Of a stretch of DNA of 41,328 nucleotides, positions 28,079-37,254 are shown piece by piece. The DNA comes from an uncultured Gammaproteobacteria bacterium (GTDB lineage Bacteria; Pseudomonadota; Gammaproteobacteria; DRJJ01): positions 1 through 41,328 of the forward strand of contig CAMYJU010000023.1 of assembly GCA_947258795.1 (NCBI GenBank), in the 5' to 3' direction. A program made the translations under genes and the position numbers. How positions within the stretch are numbered: position 1 is the first letter of the stretch; each line of letters starts with the position of its first letter. Under the pieces are notes generated by a model. That model had not been told where the DNA came from. It was given only the letters and a program-made list of their open reading frames with translations, and searched no databases.

Positions 28079-29101
28079 GTGTCAGATCAGGATCAAATAA
28101 TACGAATAGCCGGCCGCGGACGCTATCTGACTGCTCTGTTGGTACTGATGCTGCTGTGCGGCCTGACCCTGCTGCATGCGCTGGTCAGCGGCAGTGTGCC
28201 CATCCCATTCGCAACGGTGTTGCAGTTACTCGGCGGGCAGGCCGCTGACCCGGCTGCCGGCCAGCTGCAAACCATCATCCTGCAACTGCGTCTGCCGCGC
28301 GCATTGGCCGCGATGGTTACCGGCGGTCTGCTGGCCATGGCCGGCGCCTATATGCAGGTGCTATTACGCAATCCGCTGGCTGATCCGTATGTACTCGGCG
28401 TTTCCGGCGGTGCTGCGATCGGTGCTTTGCTGGCCCTGATGCTGGGCCTGGGTAGTTCACTGGTCTCCGGCGGTGCCCTGTTCGGCGCACTGGCCAGCAT
28501 GCTGCTGGTGTTCGGTCTGAGCCATCGACATAACAACTGGTACAGCGAACAATTACTGCTGACCGGGATCGTGGTTGCAACCGGCTGGGGTGCGTTGATC
28601 AGCTTTATCCTGGCGATCAGTCCGGATCAACAGTTACGCGGTATGTTGTTCTGGTTAATGGGTGATATGAGCCATAGCGACACACCGACACTGGAGGCCA
28701 TGCTGTTACTGGTCTGCGTGATCATCAGCCTGCCACTAGCGACGCGCCTGAATCTGTATGCCCAGGGACCGATGCGCGCCGCGTCGCTGGGCGTCGCGGT
28801 ACAACCCTTGCAGTGGACCATCTTTGTGATTGCCTCGATCATGACCGCAACAGCGGTACAACTGGCCGGTGCAATCGGGTTTATCGGACTGGTGATACCG
28901 CACATCATGCGTCGCGTGGTCGGCGCTGATCATCGCATTTTAATACCGGCATCTGCACTGGGTGGCGCGATACTGTTGTTACTGGCCGATACACTTGCGC
29001 GTACCGTATTCACACCGATGCAATTGCCCACCGGGGTGTTGACCGCGATGCTGGGCGTACCCTTGTTCCTGTACCTGCTTAACAAGGGCCGCCGCACATG
29101 A
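28079..29101 (+). CDS. btuC: FecCD-family ABC permease, probably cobalamin importer BtuC
   Basis: Inner-membrane permease of 340 residues with about ten transmembrane helices. FecCD signatures are visible: LRLPRALAAMVTGGLLAMAGAYMQ near the N terminus (short form: RLPRALAAMVTGGLLAMAG), NPLADPYVLGVSGGAA, and GFIGLVIPHIMRRVVGADHR near the end. The family imports cobalamin, heme or siderophores. Cobalamin is favoured because a B12 riboswitch and a cobalamin adenosyltransferase are 1-3 kb away. The start is GTG at 28079. Its TGA overlaps the ATG of the ATPase gene as ATGA. No periplasmic BtuF is in the window. Confidence 0.82.
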   Translation: MSDQDQIIRIAGRGRYLTALLVLMLLCGLTLLHALVSGSVPIPFATVLQLLGGQAADPAAGQLQTIILQLRLPRALAAMVTGGLLAMAGAYMQVLLRNPLADPYVLGVSGGAAIGALLALMLGLGSSLVSGGALFGALASMLLVFGLSHRHNNWYSEQLLLTGIVVATGWGALISFILAISPDQQLRGMLFWLMGDMSHSDTPTLEAMLLLVCVIISLPLATRLNLYAQGPMRAASLGVAVQPLQWTIFVIASIMTATAVQLAGAIGFIGLVIPHIMRRVVGADHRILIPASALGGAILLLLADTLARTVFTPMQLPTGVLTAMLGVPLFLYLLNKGRRT

Positions 29102-29865
29102 CTGTCCTGAGCTGTCAGCAATTACAGCTCAATGTGCCGGGCAAGACCCTGGTCAGCGGTCTTGACTGGGATATCGAAGCAGGTCAATTCTGGCTGGTGA
29201 TCGGGCGTAACGGCAGCGGCAAAACTACCCTGTTACAGACCCTGGCCGGACTGCGTCCAGCCGCTGGTGGTGAAATCAGCTTGCACTCACAGCCGCTGCA
29301 GCAGTACCGCCGACGCCAGATCGCGCAGCGTATGGCGATACTGTTTCAGCATCAGGAAAGCGGCTTTCCGATTACGGTACAGGAATCCGCACTGGCCGGT
29401 CGTCATCCACACCGGGGTCTGTGGGACTGGTCAGACCAGGATCAGCATGAAACGGTATTCAGTGCCTTGCAAACCATGGACCTGGCATCCGTGATGCAGC
29501 TGCCGGTCGACCAGTTGTCCGGTGGCGAACGCCGGCGACTGGAACTGGCCACGCTGCTGATACAGGATCCGGAACTGTACCTGCTCGATGAACCGACCAA
29601 CCACCTGGACCTGCATCACCAGATCAGTACGTTGGAACATTTCTCCGGCCTGGCCGCTGCACCACAACACTGTGTGGTCATGGCCAGTCATGAATTGAAT
29701 CTCGGCCTGCGCTATTGCAGCCATGTGCTGTTGCTATACGGGAATGGTGCATGGGAGGCCGGCAGGATAGACGAGGTGATCGACCCGGAACGACTGGAAC
29801 GACTCTACCAGCATCCGATGACCGTGCAGCCGGGTAGCCATGGGAACATCTACCTGCCGGCCTAG
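29098..29865 (+). CDS. btuD: ABC transporter ATPase, probably BtuD
   Basis: Cytoplasmic ATPase of 255 residues that powers the adjacent permease. Walker A GRNGSGKTTLL, Q-loop LFQHQES, signature LSGGERRRLELA, Walker B YLLDEPTNHLD and the H-loop VMASHELN are all intact. It overlaps btuC by 4 bp. It is convergent with the metallo-beta-lactamase gene: the two coding regions abut with no gap. Confidence 0.87.
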   Translation: MTVLSCQQLQLNVPGKTLVSGLDWDIEAGQFWLVIGRNGSGKTTLLQTLAGLRPAAGGEISLHSQPLQQYRRRQIAQRMAILFQHQESGFPITVQESALAGRHPHRGLWDWSDQDQHETVFSALQTMDLASVMQLPVDQLSGGERRRLELATLLIQDPELYLLDEPTNHLDLHHQISTLEHFSGLAAAPQHCVVMASHELNLGLRYCSHVLLLYGNGAWEAGRIDEVIDPERLERLYQHPMTVQPGSHGNIYLPA

Positions 29866-30870: not shown

Positions 30871-31050
30871 AGCGCGTACACAGGTGTCCTCGCCGGCTGA
30901 CCATGATCCGGCGCCCGAACACGGGAAACAGGATGAAACGGGAAGTCGGTGCGTGGTTGTGCACACAATTCCGACGCTGCCCCCGCAACGGTAGGTGAAC
31001 ACGCTTTTCAGTATGCGTGTACACAAGCCCGGAGACCGGCCTGCAGTACA
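30871..31050 (+). ncRNA. cobalamin (B12) riboswitch
   Basis: The conserved core GACGCTGCCCCCGCAACGGTA (30973-30993; shown in part as GCTGCCCCCGCAAC) is followed by a variable arm and the B12 box AAGCCCGGAGACCGGCCTGC (31025-31044). Upstream GGGAA and CGGTG elements match the rest of the aptamer. A TTGACA at 30841 could be the -35 of its promoter. It lies upstream of a TonB-like gene and a cobalamin adenosyltransferase, both consistent with B12 feedback. Confidence 0.9.
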
Positions 31051-31140: not shown

Positions 31141-31866
31141 ATGCTGTCACTGTTAATGGAGCATCGCCTGATCGTATCACTATTGTCTGTGTCAGCAGCA
31201 TTACACGGTGGCGTGTTGCTTTACAAAGGTGATGGCCAGTCCAGCATCCGTGCCAGCTCCGAGACACCGATCAACATAACCCTGATCCAGCCTTCCCCCG
31301 CAGCCAACGTCGGCACAGCCAGCCCTGTCAAACAGGTTAAAACAGAGCGCAAAAAACAGGCCCCATCACACCAGCCCGGCAAACAGGGCTCGAAATCCAG
31401 TACCGGCACTGCTGTCAGCCAGGCACCGGTAAAAAAACATCCTGTCAACCGGGTCAAAAAATCCACACAGCCACCCAGGACTGTTGTGGCCAGTGTATCA
31501 AAACAACTGCGGGACACGGAGCAGACCCGGGCACAACCGGATCCACCCGAGCAACTGCCCGAACCGACCAGCGCGGCTGTGCATAGCCAGTTACGTACCG
31601 CGCTGCAATCGCGCCTGCGTTTCAATCATTATTATCCGCGTTCGGCCATACGGCGCGGCTGGGAAGGTCGCGTGGACCTTGCGATCAGGCTGGATACGCA
31701 AGGCCAGATCGGCTCGGTTCGCGTACTGAAGTCATCCGGGCATTATGTGCTCGATCAGGCAGCCATCAACAGCGTCGAGCAACTCGAGCAACTGCCCGAA
31801 GCCGTCAGTCTGCTGGAACTGCAATCTATAGAACTGACCTTGCCGGTCATCTACCGCCTGGAGTAA
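31141..31866 (+). CDS. TonB-family protein under B12 riboswitch
   Basis: A 241-residue energy-transducing protein. An N-terminal helix (about 10-27) is followed by a long Pro/Lys/Gln/Ser-rich periplasmic spacer (about 45-145) and a C-terminal TonB domain with YPRSAIRRGWEGRVDLAIRL and VRVLKSSGHYVLDQAAI. It would link the proton motive force to an outer-membrane receptor, presumably for cobalamin given the riboswitch. No TonB-dependent receptor and no ExbB/ExbD are in the window. The start at 31141 has a weak ribosome site; an in-frame ATG five codons later is possible. Confidence 0.85.
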   Translation: MLSLLMEHRLIVSLLSVSAALHGGVLLYKGDGQSSIRASSETPINITLIQPSPAANVGTASPVKQVKTERKKQAPSHQPGKQGSKSSTGTAVSQAPVKKHPVNRVKKSTQPPRTVVASVSKQLRDTEQTRAQPDPPEQLPEPTSAAVHSQLRTALQSRLRFNHYYPRSAIRRGWEGRVDLAIRLDTQGQIGSVRVLKSSGHYVLDQAAINSVEQLEQLPEAVSLLELQSIELTLPVIYRLE

Positions 31867-31869
31867 ACC

Positions 31870-32442
31870 ATGGGACACCGACTATCAAAAATATATACCC
31901 GTACCGGCGATACCGGTAGCACCGGACTCGGAGATGGCTCACGCGCCGACAAGGACAGTCCTCGCATTACCGCGATAGGTGAGGTCGATGAACTGAACAG
32001 CTTAATCGGCGTCGTGTTAAGTCATGAACTGCCGGAACCCGTGCGCATCTGTCTAACGGAATGCCAGCATCGCCTGTTTGATATCGGCGGTGAGCTATCC
32101 ATCCCCGGCCATCGCATGATCAACCCGGATCATATCGCCTGCCTGGAACGCGACCTGGAAGCCTTCAACCGGGAACTGCCGATGATGAAGGAATTTATCC
32201 TGCCCGGCGGCACACCGGCAGCCGCACACAGTCATCATGCGCGCACCGTGTGCCGGCGTGCCGAACGCAGCCTGGTCAGTCTGAACCGGCATGAGTCCGT
32301 GAGCCCGGAACTGCTGGCCTACCTGAACCGGCTGTCCGACCTGTTGTTTGTGGTTGCCCGCGTGCTTGCACGGACCGATGGCAAACAGGAAGTGCTGTGG
32401 CAGAACCCGAAGAAAACATCCTCTAAGGACCAGGGGCCATAG
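31870..32442 (+). CDS. cob(I)alamin adenosyltransferase (PduO type)
   Basis: Transfers the adenosyl group of ATP to cob(I)alamin, making coenzyme B12. The 190 residues start with the hallmark KIYTRTGDTGSTGLGDGSR (ATP loop), followed by IGEVDELNSLIGV, and later the RAERSLVSL segment with conserved Arg and LNRLSDLLFVVAR. PduO/MMAB-type rather than CobA-type. It follows the TonB-like gene by 3 bp, with GGAG in that gene's last codons acting as ribosome site, so both are under the riboswitch. Confidence 0.93.
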   Translation: MGHRLSKIYTRTGDTGSTGLGDGSRADKDSPRITAIGEVDELNSLIGVVLSHELPEPVRICLTECQHRLFDIGGELSIPGHRMINPDHIACLERDLEAFNRELPMMKEFILPGGTPAAAHSHHARTVCRRAERSLVSLNRHESVSPELLAYLNRLSDLLFVVARVLARTDGKQEVLWQNPKKTSSKDQGP

Positions 32443-32540: not shown

Positions 32541-32939
32541 TCACTCAGAAACTTTTTTATCAAACATATGAAAATCAATCAGCCCCGCTTGTGGGTGCTC
32601 CGGACCCGGCACCTTGACGATCATTTCCAGACCCAATTCACTGTTCGCCGCAACCCATTGCTGCAGGTCATAACTCATCCACTGCTTGTATGCATAGATA
32701 TCCCGTTTCAACTTGACCTTCATTACCGTTGAAGCCTCCTGCGCAAACACATCCCCGTGAATATTGACCCGGGTACTGATCGGTTCTCCGGCACGGAAAT
32801 GCAGAATGAAATCCTGGTCACTGGGTACCTGCTCGCCAAACGGCACCACCGGCACCCCTTTCAGATCTGCCGGTATCGGTGCCATCGCACATGCGCTCAG
32901 CAGGCCCGTCATCAGCATTACAGTCAATATTTTTCGCAT
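32541..32939 (-). CDS. small predicted lipoprotein of unknown function
   Basis: A 132-residue protein with a lipoprotein signal peptide ending in the lipobox LLSAC (Cys at about 17), followed by a domain of about 110 residues with beta-strand character (DFILHFRAGEPISTRVNIHG). I do not recognise the family. Its start faces the two inverted repeats at 32994-33033, so it may share the regulator encoded at 34097-34420. AGGAGA precedes the ATG. Confidence 0.75.
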   Translation of the reverse strand: MRKILTVMLMTGLLSACAMAPIPADLKGVPVVPFGEQVPSDQDFILHFRAGEPISTRVNIHGDVFAQEASTVMKVKLKRDIYAYKQWMSYDLQQWVAANSELGLEMIVKVPGPEHPQAGLIDFHMFDKKVSE

Positions 32940-32993
32940 TTTTCTCTCCTTATGTGACTAATATGGTTGGTGTTTTCTGCAAACATGGGTTAA

Positions 32994-33033
32994 ACTCTGA
33001 ATTACAGAGTAAATATACTCTGCGTTTCAGAGT
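32994..33033. promoter_or_regulatory. double operator: two perfect ACTCTG-N5-CAGAGT repeats
   Basis: Two 17-bp perfect inverted repeats, ACTCTG-AATTA-CAGAGT (32994-33010) and ACTCTG-CGTTT-CAGAGT (33017-33033), have centres 23 bp apart, about two helical turns. They lie between the divergent lipoprotein and membrane-protein genes, just upstream of AAGGAG and the ATG at 33051. The identical arms and the winged-helix gene in the operon suggest dimer-binding sites for autoregulation. Confidence 0.7.
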
Positions 33034-33050
33034 AAGTCAAGGAGTCCGCT

Positions 33051-34091
33051 ATGACGCGTACGAGTGCGAGCGAACAAATCGAAGCTATCCATTCGATGAT
33101 GTCTACCGGGCATCACAGTGTGCGGATCGAAACACATACCCTGGTGATATGGGGCATCACTGCTGCCCTGATCATTTTATTCACTGCAGACATATTTAAT
33201 CATGAGCGCTTCCCAGATCTGGCGATTCGTTCTATCAGTATGACTGCGTTTATTACTGTCATATTGATCATCGCCGGGACACTTGAATATCGACTCACGC
33301 GCAAGAATCGCGAGCAACGTGATGAGACCGTGTCGTTCGTACAAACACAACTGATCAAGGTATGGTGGTTGATATTGGCCCTGCTGGTTATCATTAACAT
33401 GGCCATGCAGTTCTTTGGTGGCGGTTACATGCTGTACAGCCTGACCCTGTCATTTATGGGTATGGCACTTTACATACACGGACTGTTCTCACGACAGATG
33501 TTGTCCTGGGCCGGGGTATGCATGATTATCCTGGGCCTGACCACGCTCGCAGCTAAACTACCCTTGCAGTTGATCGAATGGATCACGATCTTCTGTTACG
33601 GAGTCGGATGGCCTTTGCTGGCCTGGGCAATCAATCATCGCGGCATAAATAAGAACCAGTTACACCGACTCCTATTCACACTGATATGGCTGAGTGTCAT
33701 CCTGGTACCAGCGTACACGGTCACCCTGATGGCATCGGAAGCGGCAACCGCACCTTACATCACCCTGGATGAATACCGACAACTTCCAGCTGCACCTTCA
33801 GGCAAACATATTGTTCAACTCCCCGCCGGTACAGACATACCGATCAATTATAATGTCCAGGGTGGTATACTGGATATTCCGGATAAACCTGAACTGGCGT
33901 TTACACTGGCAAAGGATATAGCGATAGAGATAGAGAATGGCAAGCCGACCGGACGATTCCAGATTGCAGACCAGTCTTGGCAGGAATTCAGGTATAACTT
34001 CCGTATACGCTTCACCCGTCTGCTCAGCAGGCTCGCTCCCGATCAGGGCCCACGGATCGATGTCAATATGAAAGTGATCAACCAGGACTGA
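33051..34091 (+). CDS. seven-helix membrane protein with C-terminal soluble domain
   Basis: A 346-residue inner-membrane protein of unrecognised family. About seven hydrophobic helices span residues 28-235 (LVIWGITAALIILFTADIF, ISMTAFITVILIIAGTLEY, VWWLILALLVIINMAMQFF and others). A hydrophilic C-terminal domain of about 100 residues follows (GKHIVQLPAGTDIPINYNVQ onward). An N-terminal cytoplasmic segment contains EQIEAIHSMM. AAGGAG precedes the ATG. It is 5 bp upstream of a winged-helix regulator and behind the double operator, so it is probably the regulated target. Function unknown. Confidence 0.8.
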   Translation: MTRTSASEQIEAIHSMMSTGHHSVRIETHTLVIWGITAALIILFTADIFNHERFPDLAIRSISMTAFITVILIIAGTLEYRLTRKNREQRDETVSFVQTQLIKVWWLILALLVIINMAMQFFGGGYMLYSLTLSFMGMALYIHGLFSRQMLSWAGVCMIILGLTTLAAKLPLQLIEWITIFCYGVGWPLLAWAINHRGINKNQLHRLLFTLIWLSVILVPAYTVTLMASEAATAPYITLDEYRQLPAAPSGKHIVQLPAGTDIPINYNVQGGILDIPDKPELAFTLAKDIAIEIENGKPTGRFQIADQSWQEFRYNFRIRFTRLLSRLAPDQGPRIDVNMKVINQD

Positions 34092-34096
34092 CTGAC

Positions 34097-34420
34097 ATGG
34101 ATGCCCCGTCGTTACCAGATCTCGATAACGTACTGCACCAGCCGGTCAGGACACGCATCGCCGCGTTTCTGGCTGCACGCGGCGAAGCCACTTTCAAGGA
34201 ACTGAAAAAAGAACTGGATATTACTGACGGTAACCTGGACGCACATCTGAAAAAACTGCTGGCCAGTGACTATCTGGTCTCGACCAAGCAGCCTGCAACC
34301 AAAGGCCGACCACAGACACTGTTTCGGCTAACTCCGGCAGGCCGGGAGGCCTTCGAGGAATATATCGAAACCCTGAAGCGCGTGCTAAGCCCGATCTTCA
34401 ATATCCATGAGGACCAATAA
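34097..34420 (+). CDS. winged-helix transcriptional regulator
   Basis: A 107-residue DNA-binding protein. VRTRIAAFLAARGEATFKEL and ITDGNLDAHLKKLLASDYLV form the recognition helices of an ArsR/MarR-like winged helix (HTH_27 type), followed by the wing TKGRPQTLFRLTPAGREAF. No metal-binding cysteines are seen, so an ArsR metal sensor is unlikely. It is the second gene of an operon with the membrane protein. The two inverted repeats at 32994-33033 are its likely binding sites. Confidence 0.85.
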   Translation: MDAPSLPDLDNVLHQPVRTRIAAFLAARGEATFKELKKELDITDGNLDAHLKKLLASDYLVSTKQPATKGRPQTLFRLTPAGREAFEEYIETLKRVLSPIFNIHEDQ

Positions 34421-34494: not shown

Positions 34495-34968
34495 TTAGTT
34501 CGTCACCTTCCAGCTACCATCCGGTTGTCGACATGCGGTGCCGTATAGCTTGTCCTTCTTGCCACCTACCACTGCATCCACGGTGTATTCACGACAAGGA
34601 CCACTGGCATCACCATAGGTGCGGGTCGGGGTCACGGTATACTGGTTACCGCTGTCCGGGTTGACCCATTGTGAAGGCACACCGGTGCGCACGGTTTCGA
34701 GTGAGTGCGCTGTCTTCAAACGATCAGCCTCATCCATGGACCTGCCAACATTCCCGCCGATTGCAGCGCCGATCATGGTACCGGCAATAACCGCCGCGGT
34801 ACGTCCGTCGCCCTTGCCAACCTGGTTACCGAGTATGCCACCCAGCACACCACCAATGATCATACCTGCCTGCTCATTCTGACCGCGTGAATCCATATTG
34901 GCGCAAGCAGAGAGAAACACGGCGATAAACGCAATCGTCAACACACGAAATACAACTGTTTTTTTCAT
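34495..34968 (-). CDS. glycine-zipper lipoprotein (17-kDa surface antigen type)
   Basis: A 157-residue outer-membrane lipoprotein. The signal peptide ends in LSAC (Cys22). A Gly-rich segment MIIGGVLGGILGNQVGKGDG and MIGAAIGGNVGRSMD forms the glycine zipper. The C-terminal surface-antigen domain contains YTVTPTRTY, PCREYTVDAVVGGKKDKLYG and TACRQPDGSWKV, typical of the family often found as envelope-stabilising or immunodominant lipoproteins. A Fur-like box lies just upstream. Convergent with the winged-helix gene. Confidence 0.88.
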   Translation of the reverse strand: MKKTVVFRVLTIAFIAVFLSACANMDSRGQNEQAGMIIGGVLGGILGNQVGKGDGRTAAVIAGTMIGAAIGGNVGRSMDEADRLKTAHSLETVRTGVPSQWVNPDSGNQYTVTPTRTYGDASGPCREYTVDAVVGGKKDKLYGTACRQPDGSWKVTN

Positions 34969-35095: not shown

Positions 35096-35400
35096 TCAAC
35101 CCAGTGTGAAATAAAAGGTCGAGCCCCGGTCGGGTTCAGACTTTGCCCAGACCTCACCTTCATGTCGTTCGATAATGCGTTTGACAGTCGCCAGCCCGAT
35201 ACCGGTACCCTCATATTCATTTCCATGCAGCCGTTCAAACACACCGAACAGTTTAGCGGTATAGGCCATATCGAAGCCTGCGCGATGATATCCGGTGCAA
35301 CCGTGATTTCAATGTCACGTTCTGGTTCCTGCTCGCGGTACTGTTCGATTATTTTGCTGACCTTCGCGCTCAGCCTGGCTACAACAATGTTCGCAGACGC
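35096..35400 (-). pseudogene. histidine-kinase remnant with internal deletion
   Basis: In one minus-strand frame the segment [33 protein letters not shown] (quoted in part: [19 protein letters not shown]) corresponds to the linker just after HisKA. About 30 bp on, in another frame, [38 protein letters not shown] and STFYFTLG give the end of the HATPase_c domain. The ATP-binding N box and the G1 start are missing, and the 5' part is lost at the end of the neighbouring hydrolase gene. It resembles the kinase at 733-2373, but is not identical. Not functional. Confidence 0.8.
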
Positions 35401-36236
35401 CGTGTCATCCTGGTGCCGATCTTCTTGTAACCATCTGTATTTGGATGAATTTCATTCAGCCAGTCATTGCTCGCAAACACCGTACCCGGATCCGCCCGTT
35501 TCAACACACCCTGGGTTGTGACCACGTGAAAGTGCGGCAATTTATTGGTGCCGCCGCGCCCCAGACTCTTGATCGTATCGCGCAGGCGGCCCAGCAGGTA
35601 GTCGGAAATATCGTCCCATCGCGATTCCGGGATCCGGGCCTTGATCAGCGCCTTATAGAGCCAGGGCCCAAGCACCTTGTTACCAAAGAAACGCGCCGGT
35701 GAATTACGTGGCGTGACCCAGTCATAGGTATGCACCACGATGGGCTTGTTGGCGCAGCTGCTGCCCGCTTTGTCGCGCTGATCAACAATACGACTGTATC
35801 CATCGATGATGTTTTGCATGGTTTCTAGTATTTGCGCTTCCTTACAGTATGCCGCCGGATCAGTCGGCGCAGCACCTCTCGGTTTTTTGATAATTTTTTT
35901 TGCATCATCGATCAGGTCATTGCCACCGCCACTAAGCAGGATCGCATCCCACTGTGAACCATGCAATGCGCTCATGGCATCGCGCAGACTGTTATTCCTG
36001 GCGATTTTCGCCATGTTGCGTATCGTGTCTCCGGGCCTCGCACAGTTGACGATCACCGTAGGCGAGTCGAAGCGCATGGTAAACAGGATATTGGACGTTG
36101 GTATCCCGGCGATAGAAAACCACGAATCACCTTCGGCCAGAATACGGTAATCGTAGAACTCATCATCCGGATTACACTGCGGATCTTCTTCGTCATAACA
36201 GACATTCATCCAGCTGATAACATGTGCAAGAGCCAT
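35379..36236 (-). CDS. SGNH/GDSL-like hydrolase, paralogue 1
   Basis: A 285-residue protein without signal peptide. Block I is AEGDSWFS (Ser38), a block II Gly lies in NCARPGDTI, block III is SGGGNDL (Asn106) and block V is NEIHPNTDGYKK (His264), where the usual catalytic Asp three residues before His is Asn261. The N-terminal DEEDPQCNPDDEFYDYR is strongly acidic and shared with the next gene. Probable esterase or lipase-like fold; the substrate is unknown. It lies 166 bp downstream of its paralogue on the same strand. Its 3' end overlaps the kinase remnant by about 20 bp. Confidence 0.78.
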   Translation of the reverse strand: MALAHVISWMNVCYDEEDPQCNPDDEFYDYRILAEGDSWFSIAGIPTSNILFTMRFDSPTVIVNCARPGDTIRNMAKIARNNSLRDAMSALHGSQWDAILLSGGGNDLIDDAKKIIKKPRGAAPTDPAAYCKEAQILETMQNIIDGYSRIVDQRDKAGSSCANKPIVVHTYDWVTPRNSPARFFGNKVLGPWLYKALIKARIPESRWDDISDYLLGRLRDTIKSLGRGGTNKLPHFHVVTTQGVLKRADPGTVFASNDWLNEIHPNTDGYKKIGTRMTRRLRTLL

Positions 36237-36402: not shown

Positions 36403-37254
36403 TCAGGGCAATAACTGATATATGCGGCTTTCGACTATACCACTCAGCTTTTTATAGCCATCGGCGGTTGGATGCGCCTCATCTGACCAGTCGTGACTGT
36501 TGCCCCTGGCACTGGGGTCCGCCCTTTTCAGGGTATCCTGACCGGTCACTACATGGAAATTCGGCAAGGCGTCATCGCCCTGTGACAGCTCCAGTAGTGT
36601 GTCGCGCAGGCGCCCGATCAGGTAATCGGAAATCGCATTCCAGTGAACCGGATCGATTTGTGCCTTGCTCAGGGCCTTGTACAGGTAAGCCCCGGACAAG
36701 GGTATGCCGAAAAAACGCGACGGGGCGTTACGCGGTGTAATCCAGTCATAGCTATGTGCAATTACCGGCTTGCCACTGCAACTGCTGTTCGGACCATCGC
36801 GCAACTCGATCACCGTGCGATAGCTCGCGCGTATAACCTGCAACTGTTCCTGCAAACGGGCCTGGTCACAATAGCTCGATGGCTCTGCGCCATCGTCAGT
36901 CGAGCGGATAATCTGTCCAGCGTTTTTAATCAGATGCATCGCGCCACAGCTGAGCAGGATGGCATCCCAACGGCTTCCATGCGATTCGCTGATCGCGTGA
37001 TAAAAATCGATATTGCCAGGCGCCCTGGTAGCCAATCGCTGACAGTTGCCGCTGGATGCGCAGTTGACGATCACTGTCGGCTCCCTGAAACGCATTGGAA
37101 ACAGCAGGTTCGAGCCGGGGTTTCCGGAAGAGGAAAACCATGAATCGCCCTCGGCCAGGATACGATATTCGTAATAATCGTCATCCGGGTTCCACTCAGG
37201 GTCCTCTTCATCGTATTCCACTTCATTCCAGGTGAGTATACGTGCGCGTTTCAT
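36403..37254 (-). CDS. SGNH/GDSL-like hydrolase, paralogue 2
   Basis: A 283-residue homologue of the preceding gene, collinear along its whole length. Block I AEGDSWFS (Ser38) and block V DEAHPTADGYKK (Asp258, His261) are intact, but block III reads SCGAMHL where paralogue 1 has SGGGNDL, so the oxyanion-hole Asn is missing. The shared acidic start (DEEDPEWNPDDDYYEYR) and central HSYDWITPRNAPSRFFG / HTYDWVTPRNSPARFFG segment show recent duplication. No signal peptide. It follows the coiled-coil protein gene by 73 bp on the same strand, so the three may be one transcript. Function unknown. Confidence 0.76.
   Translation of the reverse strand: MKRARILTWNEVEYDEEDPEWNPDDDYYEYRILAEGDSWFSSSGNPGSNLLFPMRFREPTVIVNCASSGNCQRLATRAPGNIDFYHAISESHGSRWDAILLSCGAMHLIKNAGQIIRSTDDGAEPSSYCDQARLQEQLQVIRASYRTVIELRDGPNSSCSGKPVIAHSYDWITPRNAPSRFFGIPLSGAYLYKALSKAQIDPVHWNAISDYLIGRLRDTLLELSQGDDALPNFHVVTGQDTLKRADPSARGNSHDWSDEAHPTADGYKKLSGIVESRIYQLLP

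Follow-up and report, generated by a model that had tools for sequence, protein, structure and literature searches.

The small winged-helix regulator encoded by the second gene of a two-gene operon in the 41,328-nucleotide window (the whole stretch of DNA analysed, from an uncultured gammaproteobacterium) is probably an autorepressor that shuts both its own operon and a divergent lipoprotein gene, the signal being most likely relayed by its membrane-protein partner. The operon begins with the gene of this partner (33051–34091, + strand; 346 residues, characterised by AlphaFold and Pfam search), followed by the regulator gene (34097–34420, +; 107 residues). The lipoprotein gene (32541–32939, − strand; 132 residues) codes for a product with lipobox LLSAC and Ala at position +2. 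The 111 bp of intergenic DNA between it and the operon contain two operators, O1 (ACTCTG-AATTA-CAGAGT, 32994–33010) and O2 (ACTCTG-CGTTT-CAGAGT, 33017–33033), whose centres are 23 bp apart. A sequence-only reading of this DNA had described the same layout, and it holds: both palindromes are perfect and were correctly placed, the AlphaFold model features seven membrane helices, the divergent gene faces the operon and encodes a lipobox, and the regulator matches PF13601 (HTH_34) at 77 bits (cut-off 27, E=1.2e-21) over profile positions 1–79 of 80.

The motif was sought before homologous operons of other genomes, as that reading had suggested. Twin operators precede all ten related operons that have upstream DNA, including one on an alphaproteobacterial plasmid; a failure of the repeats to be conserved there, which that reading had named as a refutation, is therefore not observed. 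Eight of these relatives were found by protein search alone (G080, G238, G226, G184, G392, G385, G383 and a plasmid of Azospirillum oryzae), and in each of them the two operators lie 30–85 bp before the first gene. The other two, G178 and G213, which also encode the regulator, came to light in a blind search of genomes for the twin pattern; a further relative, G386, is interrupted by a contig end and stands outside the count of ten. The blind scan matched 4 of 369 genomes, every match being located before an operon of the HTH_34 regulator, and its reversed control matched none of the 369. In the window and its ten relatives 20 of the 22 operator sites are perfect and two carry one mismatch. 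The membrane proteins of the relatives have only 26–41% identity to that of the window and, because the proteins are so divergent, the operator sites must be under strong selection. Centre spacings at the 11 loci are 22, 22, 23 (six times), 24, 24 and 34 bp, the last one (G184) being equal to 23 bp plus one helical turn. The helical phase between the twin operators is maintained in the relatives (22–24 bp, or 34 bp). Two dimers had been proposed to bind on one DNA face; the spacing of 23 bp does not place them on exactly the same face, as it amounts to about 2.2 helical turns and sets the sites ~70 degrees apart around the helix.

The occurrence of the module is patchy. The membrane protein is found in 6 of the 369 genomes of the class, with the regulator present in all six; the module occurs in one of 20 genomes in the family of G080 and is absent from the one same-genus genome (81% complete). 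It is complete in the A. oryzae plasmid NZ_CP054620.1 (L059 3992–5846), which has the twin operators and carries the lipoprotein gene inside the operon. The membrane protein of this plasmid is annotated as 'MFS transporter permease', an assignment to which its sequence gives no support. Recurrent neighbours across the loci are, besides the lipoprotein, limited to Omp85-type genes near L042–L044: in L043 and L044, which belong to two related genomes, the operon has Omp85-superfamily genes in tandem on its flanks, and a similar gene adjoins it in L042.

The regulator, of about 100 residues, is essentially the 80-position HTH_34 domain and has no ligand domain. It also matches PadR at 28.0 bits (cut-off 27), far below its HTH_34 score. 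A match to Csa3, considered as a possible indication of a role in defence, was discarded because it reflects a generic winged helix only. The protein would act as a dimeric autorepressor with one dimer bound per 17-bp palindrome. Its link to the operators is best seen in G213, where the twin operators are followed by a DUF1835-type gene and the regulator gene, without the membrane protein. The operator is thus tied to the regulator gene rather than to the membrane-protein gene. Self-regulation, which had been proposed from the window, is well supported on comparative grounds by this tracking together with the presence of twin operators before all relatives with upstream DNA. In G080 the gene order is membrane protein, DUF1835, regulator. 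The DUF1835 matches have E-values of 5.9e-5 and of 4.6e-4 (just below cut-off). DUF1835-type genes directly before HTH_34 are found in L011 (5008–6316) and L004 (2526–3925), apparently as alternative or additional partners. The recognition helix of the window regulator is predicted to be TDGNLDAHLKKL (34220–34258, +). The motif GNL[DE] is present there in 12 of 12 regulators of the ACTCTG group, and Ala, Ser or Gly occupies the last position in 11 others. The acidic residue after GNL, Asp48 in the window regulator, is confined to the ACTCTG group; such a distribution fits a residue that defines operator specificity, although it may reflect a single evolutionary event that separates one clade from the rest.

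More distant HTH_34 genes are likewise found downstream of a membrane-protein gene. Palindromes related to the operators (ACTTTG/AGTTTG-N5-CAAA) precede distant HTH_34 operons of several phyla and possibly of one archaeon. Those with the same 17-bp geometry are ACTTTGTATCACAAAGT in Bacteroides, ACTTTGTATAACAAAGT in Thermomicrobium, AGTTTGTGATACAAACT in a Chloroflexota plasmid and AGTTTGTAGTGCAAACT in G259, with a possible one, ACTTTGCATTGCAAACT, in the archaeon Natronosalvus. G139 (L028 3425–4251) codes for a different membrane protein–HTH_34 pair which has its own twin operators, ACTTTCC-N5-GGAAAGT, 31 bp apart. Related palindromes are carried by roughly half of 20 distant loci; they are individually significant in L060, L061, L066, L073 and L028, and not in the others. 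Since about half of the loci show nothing convincing, a family-wide palindrome for HTH_34 can be proposed only in part. At distant loci the regulator is accompanied by CreD, by ABC transporter genes or by membrane proteins of unrelated type. A plasmid of Bacteroides finegoldii (L060 1880–4155) features a membrane protein–HTH_34–creD operon behind ACTTTG-N5-CAAAGT, an arrangement that is a possible clue to control of CreD outside CreBC.

The AlphaFold model of the window membrane protein (mean pLDDT 76.6) comprises an amino-terminal amphipathic helix (residues 6–19), the seven membrane helices and a carboxyl-terminal beta domain (residues 236–345; 33756–34088, +), which blastp and hhalign identify as shared with the lipoprotein. 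Given a cytosolic amino terminus, the odd number of helices places the beta domain probably in the periplasm. No Pfam family matches the membrane protein above cut-off. The domain of the lipoprotein is related to residues 234–340 of the membrane protein (hhalign profile E=1.8e-8), and blastp between orthologs reaches 2e-6 for the lipoprotein against the carboxyl-terminal domain. Lipoprotein orthologs are divergently encoded in L005, L010 and L044. In Azospirillum the gene lies between those of the membrane protein and the regulator, and its product is similar to the window lipoprotein (blastp 5e-23). By these sequence relationships the lipoprotein is part of the module; it is absent from several relatives. 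The view of the locus as an envelope unit, put forward earlier, is strengthened by the common domain and by the position of the gene within the Azospirillum operon. By the +2 rule of lipoprotein sorting established for enterobacteria, Ala at this position suggests that the window lipoprotein is probably located in the outer membrane. Its structure model has low confidence (pLDDT 61). Searches for relatives of solved structure for the two proteins gave none at useful scores by sequence and none by Foldseek, and VIA-align returned nothing better than middling matches to helical bundles (best Z 6.8). Neither protein matches the defence systems of PADLOC.

Among the membrane proteins, the amino-terminal helix, the segment that leads into helix 1 and the helix 2–3 loop are better conserved (0.71–0.76) than the periplasmic domain (0.49). 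The lack of a ligand domain in the regulator, together with the better conservation of the membrane protein on its cytosolic side, makes it most likely that the signal reaches the regulator via its membrane partner. The seven-helix protein would sense the state of the envelope through the periplasmic domain that it has in common with the lipoprotein, and would capture or release the regulator at the conserved cytosolic face (amino-terminal helix and helix 2–3 loop). We infer this relay, and the nature of the signal, by analogy with known systems (see below). The relay is not obligatory: the regulator operon of G213, which has no membrane protein, shows that a different partner can serve the regulator. 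A less likely alternative is that the autorepressor detects a cytosolic small molecule directly, as is the case for many MarR- and PadR-type proteins; the membrane protein and lipoprotein would then be effectors only, such as a transporter or a pair for immunity or repair, with no role in signalling. The tracking of the regulator by the operators even where the membrane protein is missing would be expected in that case, and the unrelated membrane proteins, CreD and ABC transporter genes beside distant regulators could all be outputs. Such an account sits less well with a regulator of ~100 residues devoid of a ligand domain and with conservation centred on the cytosolic face of the membrane protein; in addition, the recurrence of a membrane-protein gene directly upstream in distant phyla suggests a working pair. 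Extending the membrane relay to the whole group leads to a more speculative picture that we put forward as tentative: an as yet undescribed envelope signalling family in which a minimal HTH_34 repressor, acting on a deeply conserved 17-bp operator, would be held or released by interchangeable membrane partners. In the window it would read the state of a domain that the inner-membrane protein and a lipoprotein of the outer membrane have in common, a single twin-operator switch thus receiving input from both sides of the periplasm.

The placement of the operators relative to predicted promoters bears on how the regulator acts. The putative lipoprotein promoter (33012–33040, −) consists of TTGACT (33040–33035), a 17-bp spacer that contains O2, and TATATT (33017–33012). 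Equivalent minus-strand promoters with the same placement are found in L005, L010 and L044, the other loci in which the lipoprotein is divergent, as well as in L042 and L043. The predicted operon promoter (32991–33019, +) is TAAACT, 17 bp, TATACT (33014–33019), with O1 across the spacer; an alternative −35 hexamer is TTAAAC at 32990, with an 18-bp spacer. It is weak in the window (8 of 12 consensus matches), and strong promoters occupy the same place in L025 (TTGACA-16-TATAAT) and L026 (TTGACA-17-TATATT). A transcript hairpin was also considered and rejected, the sole terminator-like match being operator O2 itself on the minus strand. Each operator occupies one promoter's spacer while overlapping the start of the opposite promoter. 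Repression in both directions is consistent with this overlap, from which we infer that the regulator represses. The dimer at O1 would fill the spacer of the operon promoter; the dimer at O2 would cover the start region of that promoter and, on the opposite strand, fill the spacer of the lipoprotein promoter. Occupation of the two sites would thereby shut the membrane protein/regulator operon and the lipoprotein gene. The location of O1 between the −35 and −10 hexamers could also be read as that of an activator site, as in MerR-type promoters. We regard this as very improbable: MerR promoters have spacers of 19–20 bp against 15–18 bp here, the start region is covered by O2, the consensus promoters of some relatives (TTGACA-16-TATAAT in L025) need no activator, and the regulator does not belong to the MerR family.

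O1 and O2 are the only perfect copies of ACTCTG-N5-CAGAGT in the 3.36-Mb genome; with up to two mismatches allowed, 1.1 matches are expected by chance in the whole window. A wider regulon was sought genome-wide at the same tolerance; the motif gave 66 sites and its reversed control 67. The lack of excess means that the operator motif reveals no wider regulon, and it apparently marks a single target locus in this genome; the bound dimers would accordingly have apparently no other target there. The local HTH_34 protein is predicted to bind the operators. That they serve another regulator encoded elsewhere while the HTH_34 protein acts at different sites is highly improbable, given the co-occurrence of operator and HTH_34 regulator in every relative with upstream DNA (one of them without membrane protein), the absence of other perfect sites from the genome, and the same palindrome geometry at distant HTH_34 operons.

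Known systems offer partial parallels to the autorepressor and its membrane partner. In Bacillus subtilis SdpI–SdpR the membrane protein, in response to an external signal, retains the repressor at the membrane (PMC1626106). As in the window, two genes form an operon that pairs a polytopic membrane protein with a small regulator, an autorepressor in the Bacillus case. However, the window regulator reaches 14.1 bits with the SdpR model, whose cut-off is 100, and its membrane protein, with no Pfam family above cut-off, is not recognised as SdpI; the window module has in addition a lipoprotein with the outer domain of the membrane protein, twin operators and a divergent promoter. In the HAAS–PadR dyad a stand-alone winged-helix regulator always accompanies a membrane protein, and the dyad has been put forward as a substitute for two-component systems in envelope signalling (PMC11237479). 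In Listeria, where PadR repressors control membrane-protein operons, LstR and LltR act mainly on the operons that encode them (PMC6624303). The pairing of a winged-helix regulator with a membrane protein is common to these cases and to the window, whose regulator fits HTH_34 (77 bits) far better than PadR (28 bits). The membrane protein has no match to HAAS, DUF1700 or DUF1048 at E<=1, and a single amphipathic helix precedes its first membrane helix, in contrast to the three helices of the HAAS domain (PMC11237479). Archaeal PH1061 (PDB 1ub9), of the same HTH_34 family, is the nearest solved structure of the regulator. The membrane protein–HTH_34–creD loci of Bacteroidota are similar in the order of their first two genes and in ACTTTG-N5-CAAAGT before the first gene, but have another membrane protein, a single operator seen and CreD instead of the lipoprotein; CreD (PF06123) has no match in the window membrane protein and is a separate gene that adjoins a distant HTH_34 gene. 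The literature searched on HTH_34/PF13601, DUF1835 and ACTTTG operators yielded nothing on a membrane protein–HTH_34 pair and no paper naming HTH_34/PF13601 or its operators. The combination of a membrane protein–autorepressor pair with twin operators, a joint divergent promoter region and a putative outer-membrane partner carrying the same domain thus appears to be new. Through this module the HTH_34 family gains a candidate operator, together with a defined partner and a regulon of one target, and the few kinase-independent membrane protein–repressor pairs would gain a proteobacterial, lipoprotein-linked member. Should the related palindromes of distant phyla prove genuine, HTH_34 targets could be predicted broadly from the operator.

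Other features of the window were also noted. A glycine-zipper lipoprotein of the 17-kDa surface antigen type (34495–34968, −) is convergent with the operon and is not common to the relatives examined. Farther downstream, two tandem proteins that are 51% identical are encoded at 35379–36236 and 36403–37254 (−): the first matches GDSL lipases, and the second, without Pfam match, may have lost the catalytic motif. The window starts with a partial 16S rRNA gene (1–333, −) truncated by its edge. At lower coordinates than the lipoprotein gene, a cobalamin riboswitch (Rfam RF00174, 61.8 bits; 30881–31043, +) precedes a TonB-like gene (31141–31866) and a cobalamin adenosyltransferase gene (31870–32442), which form a corrinoid uptake cluster with a permease/ATPase pair resembling BtuC/BtuD at 28079–29865.
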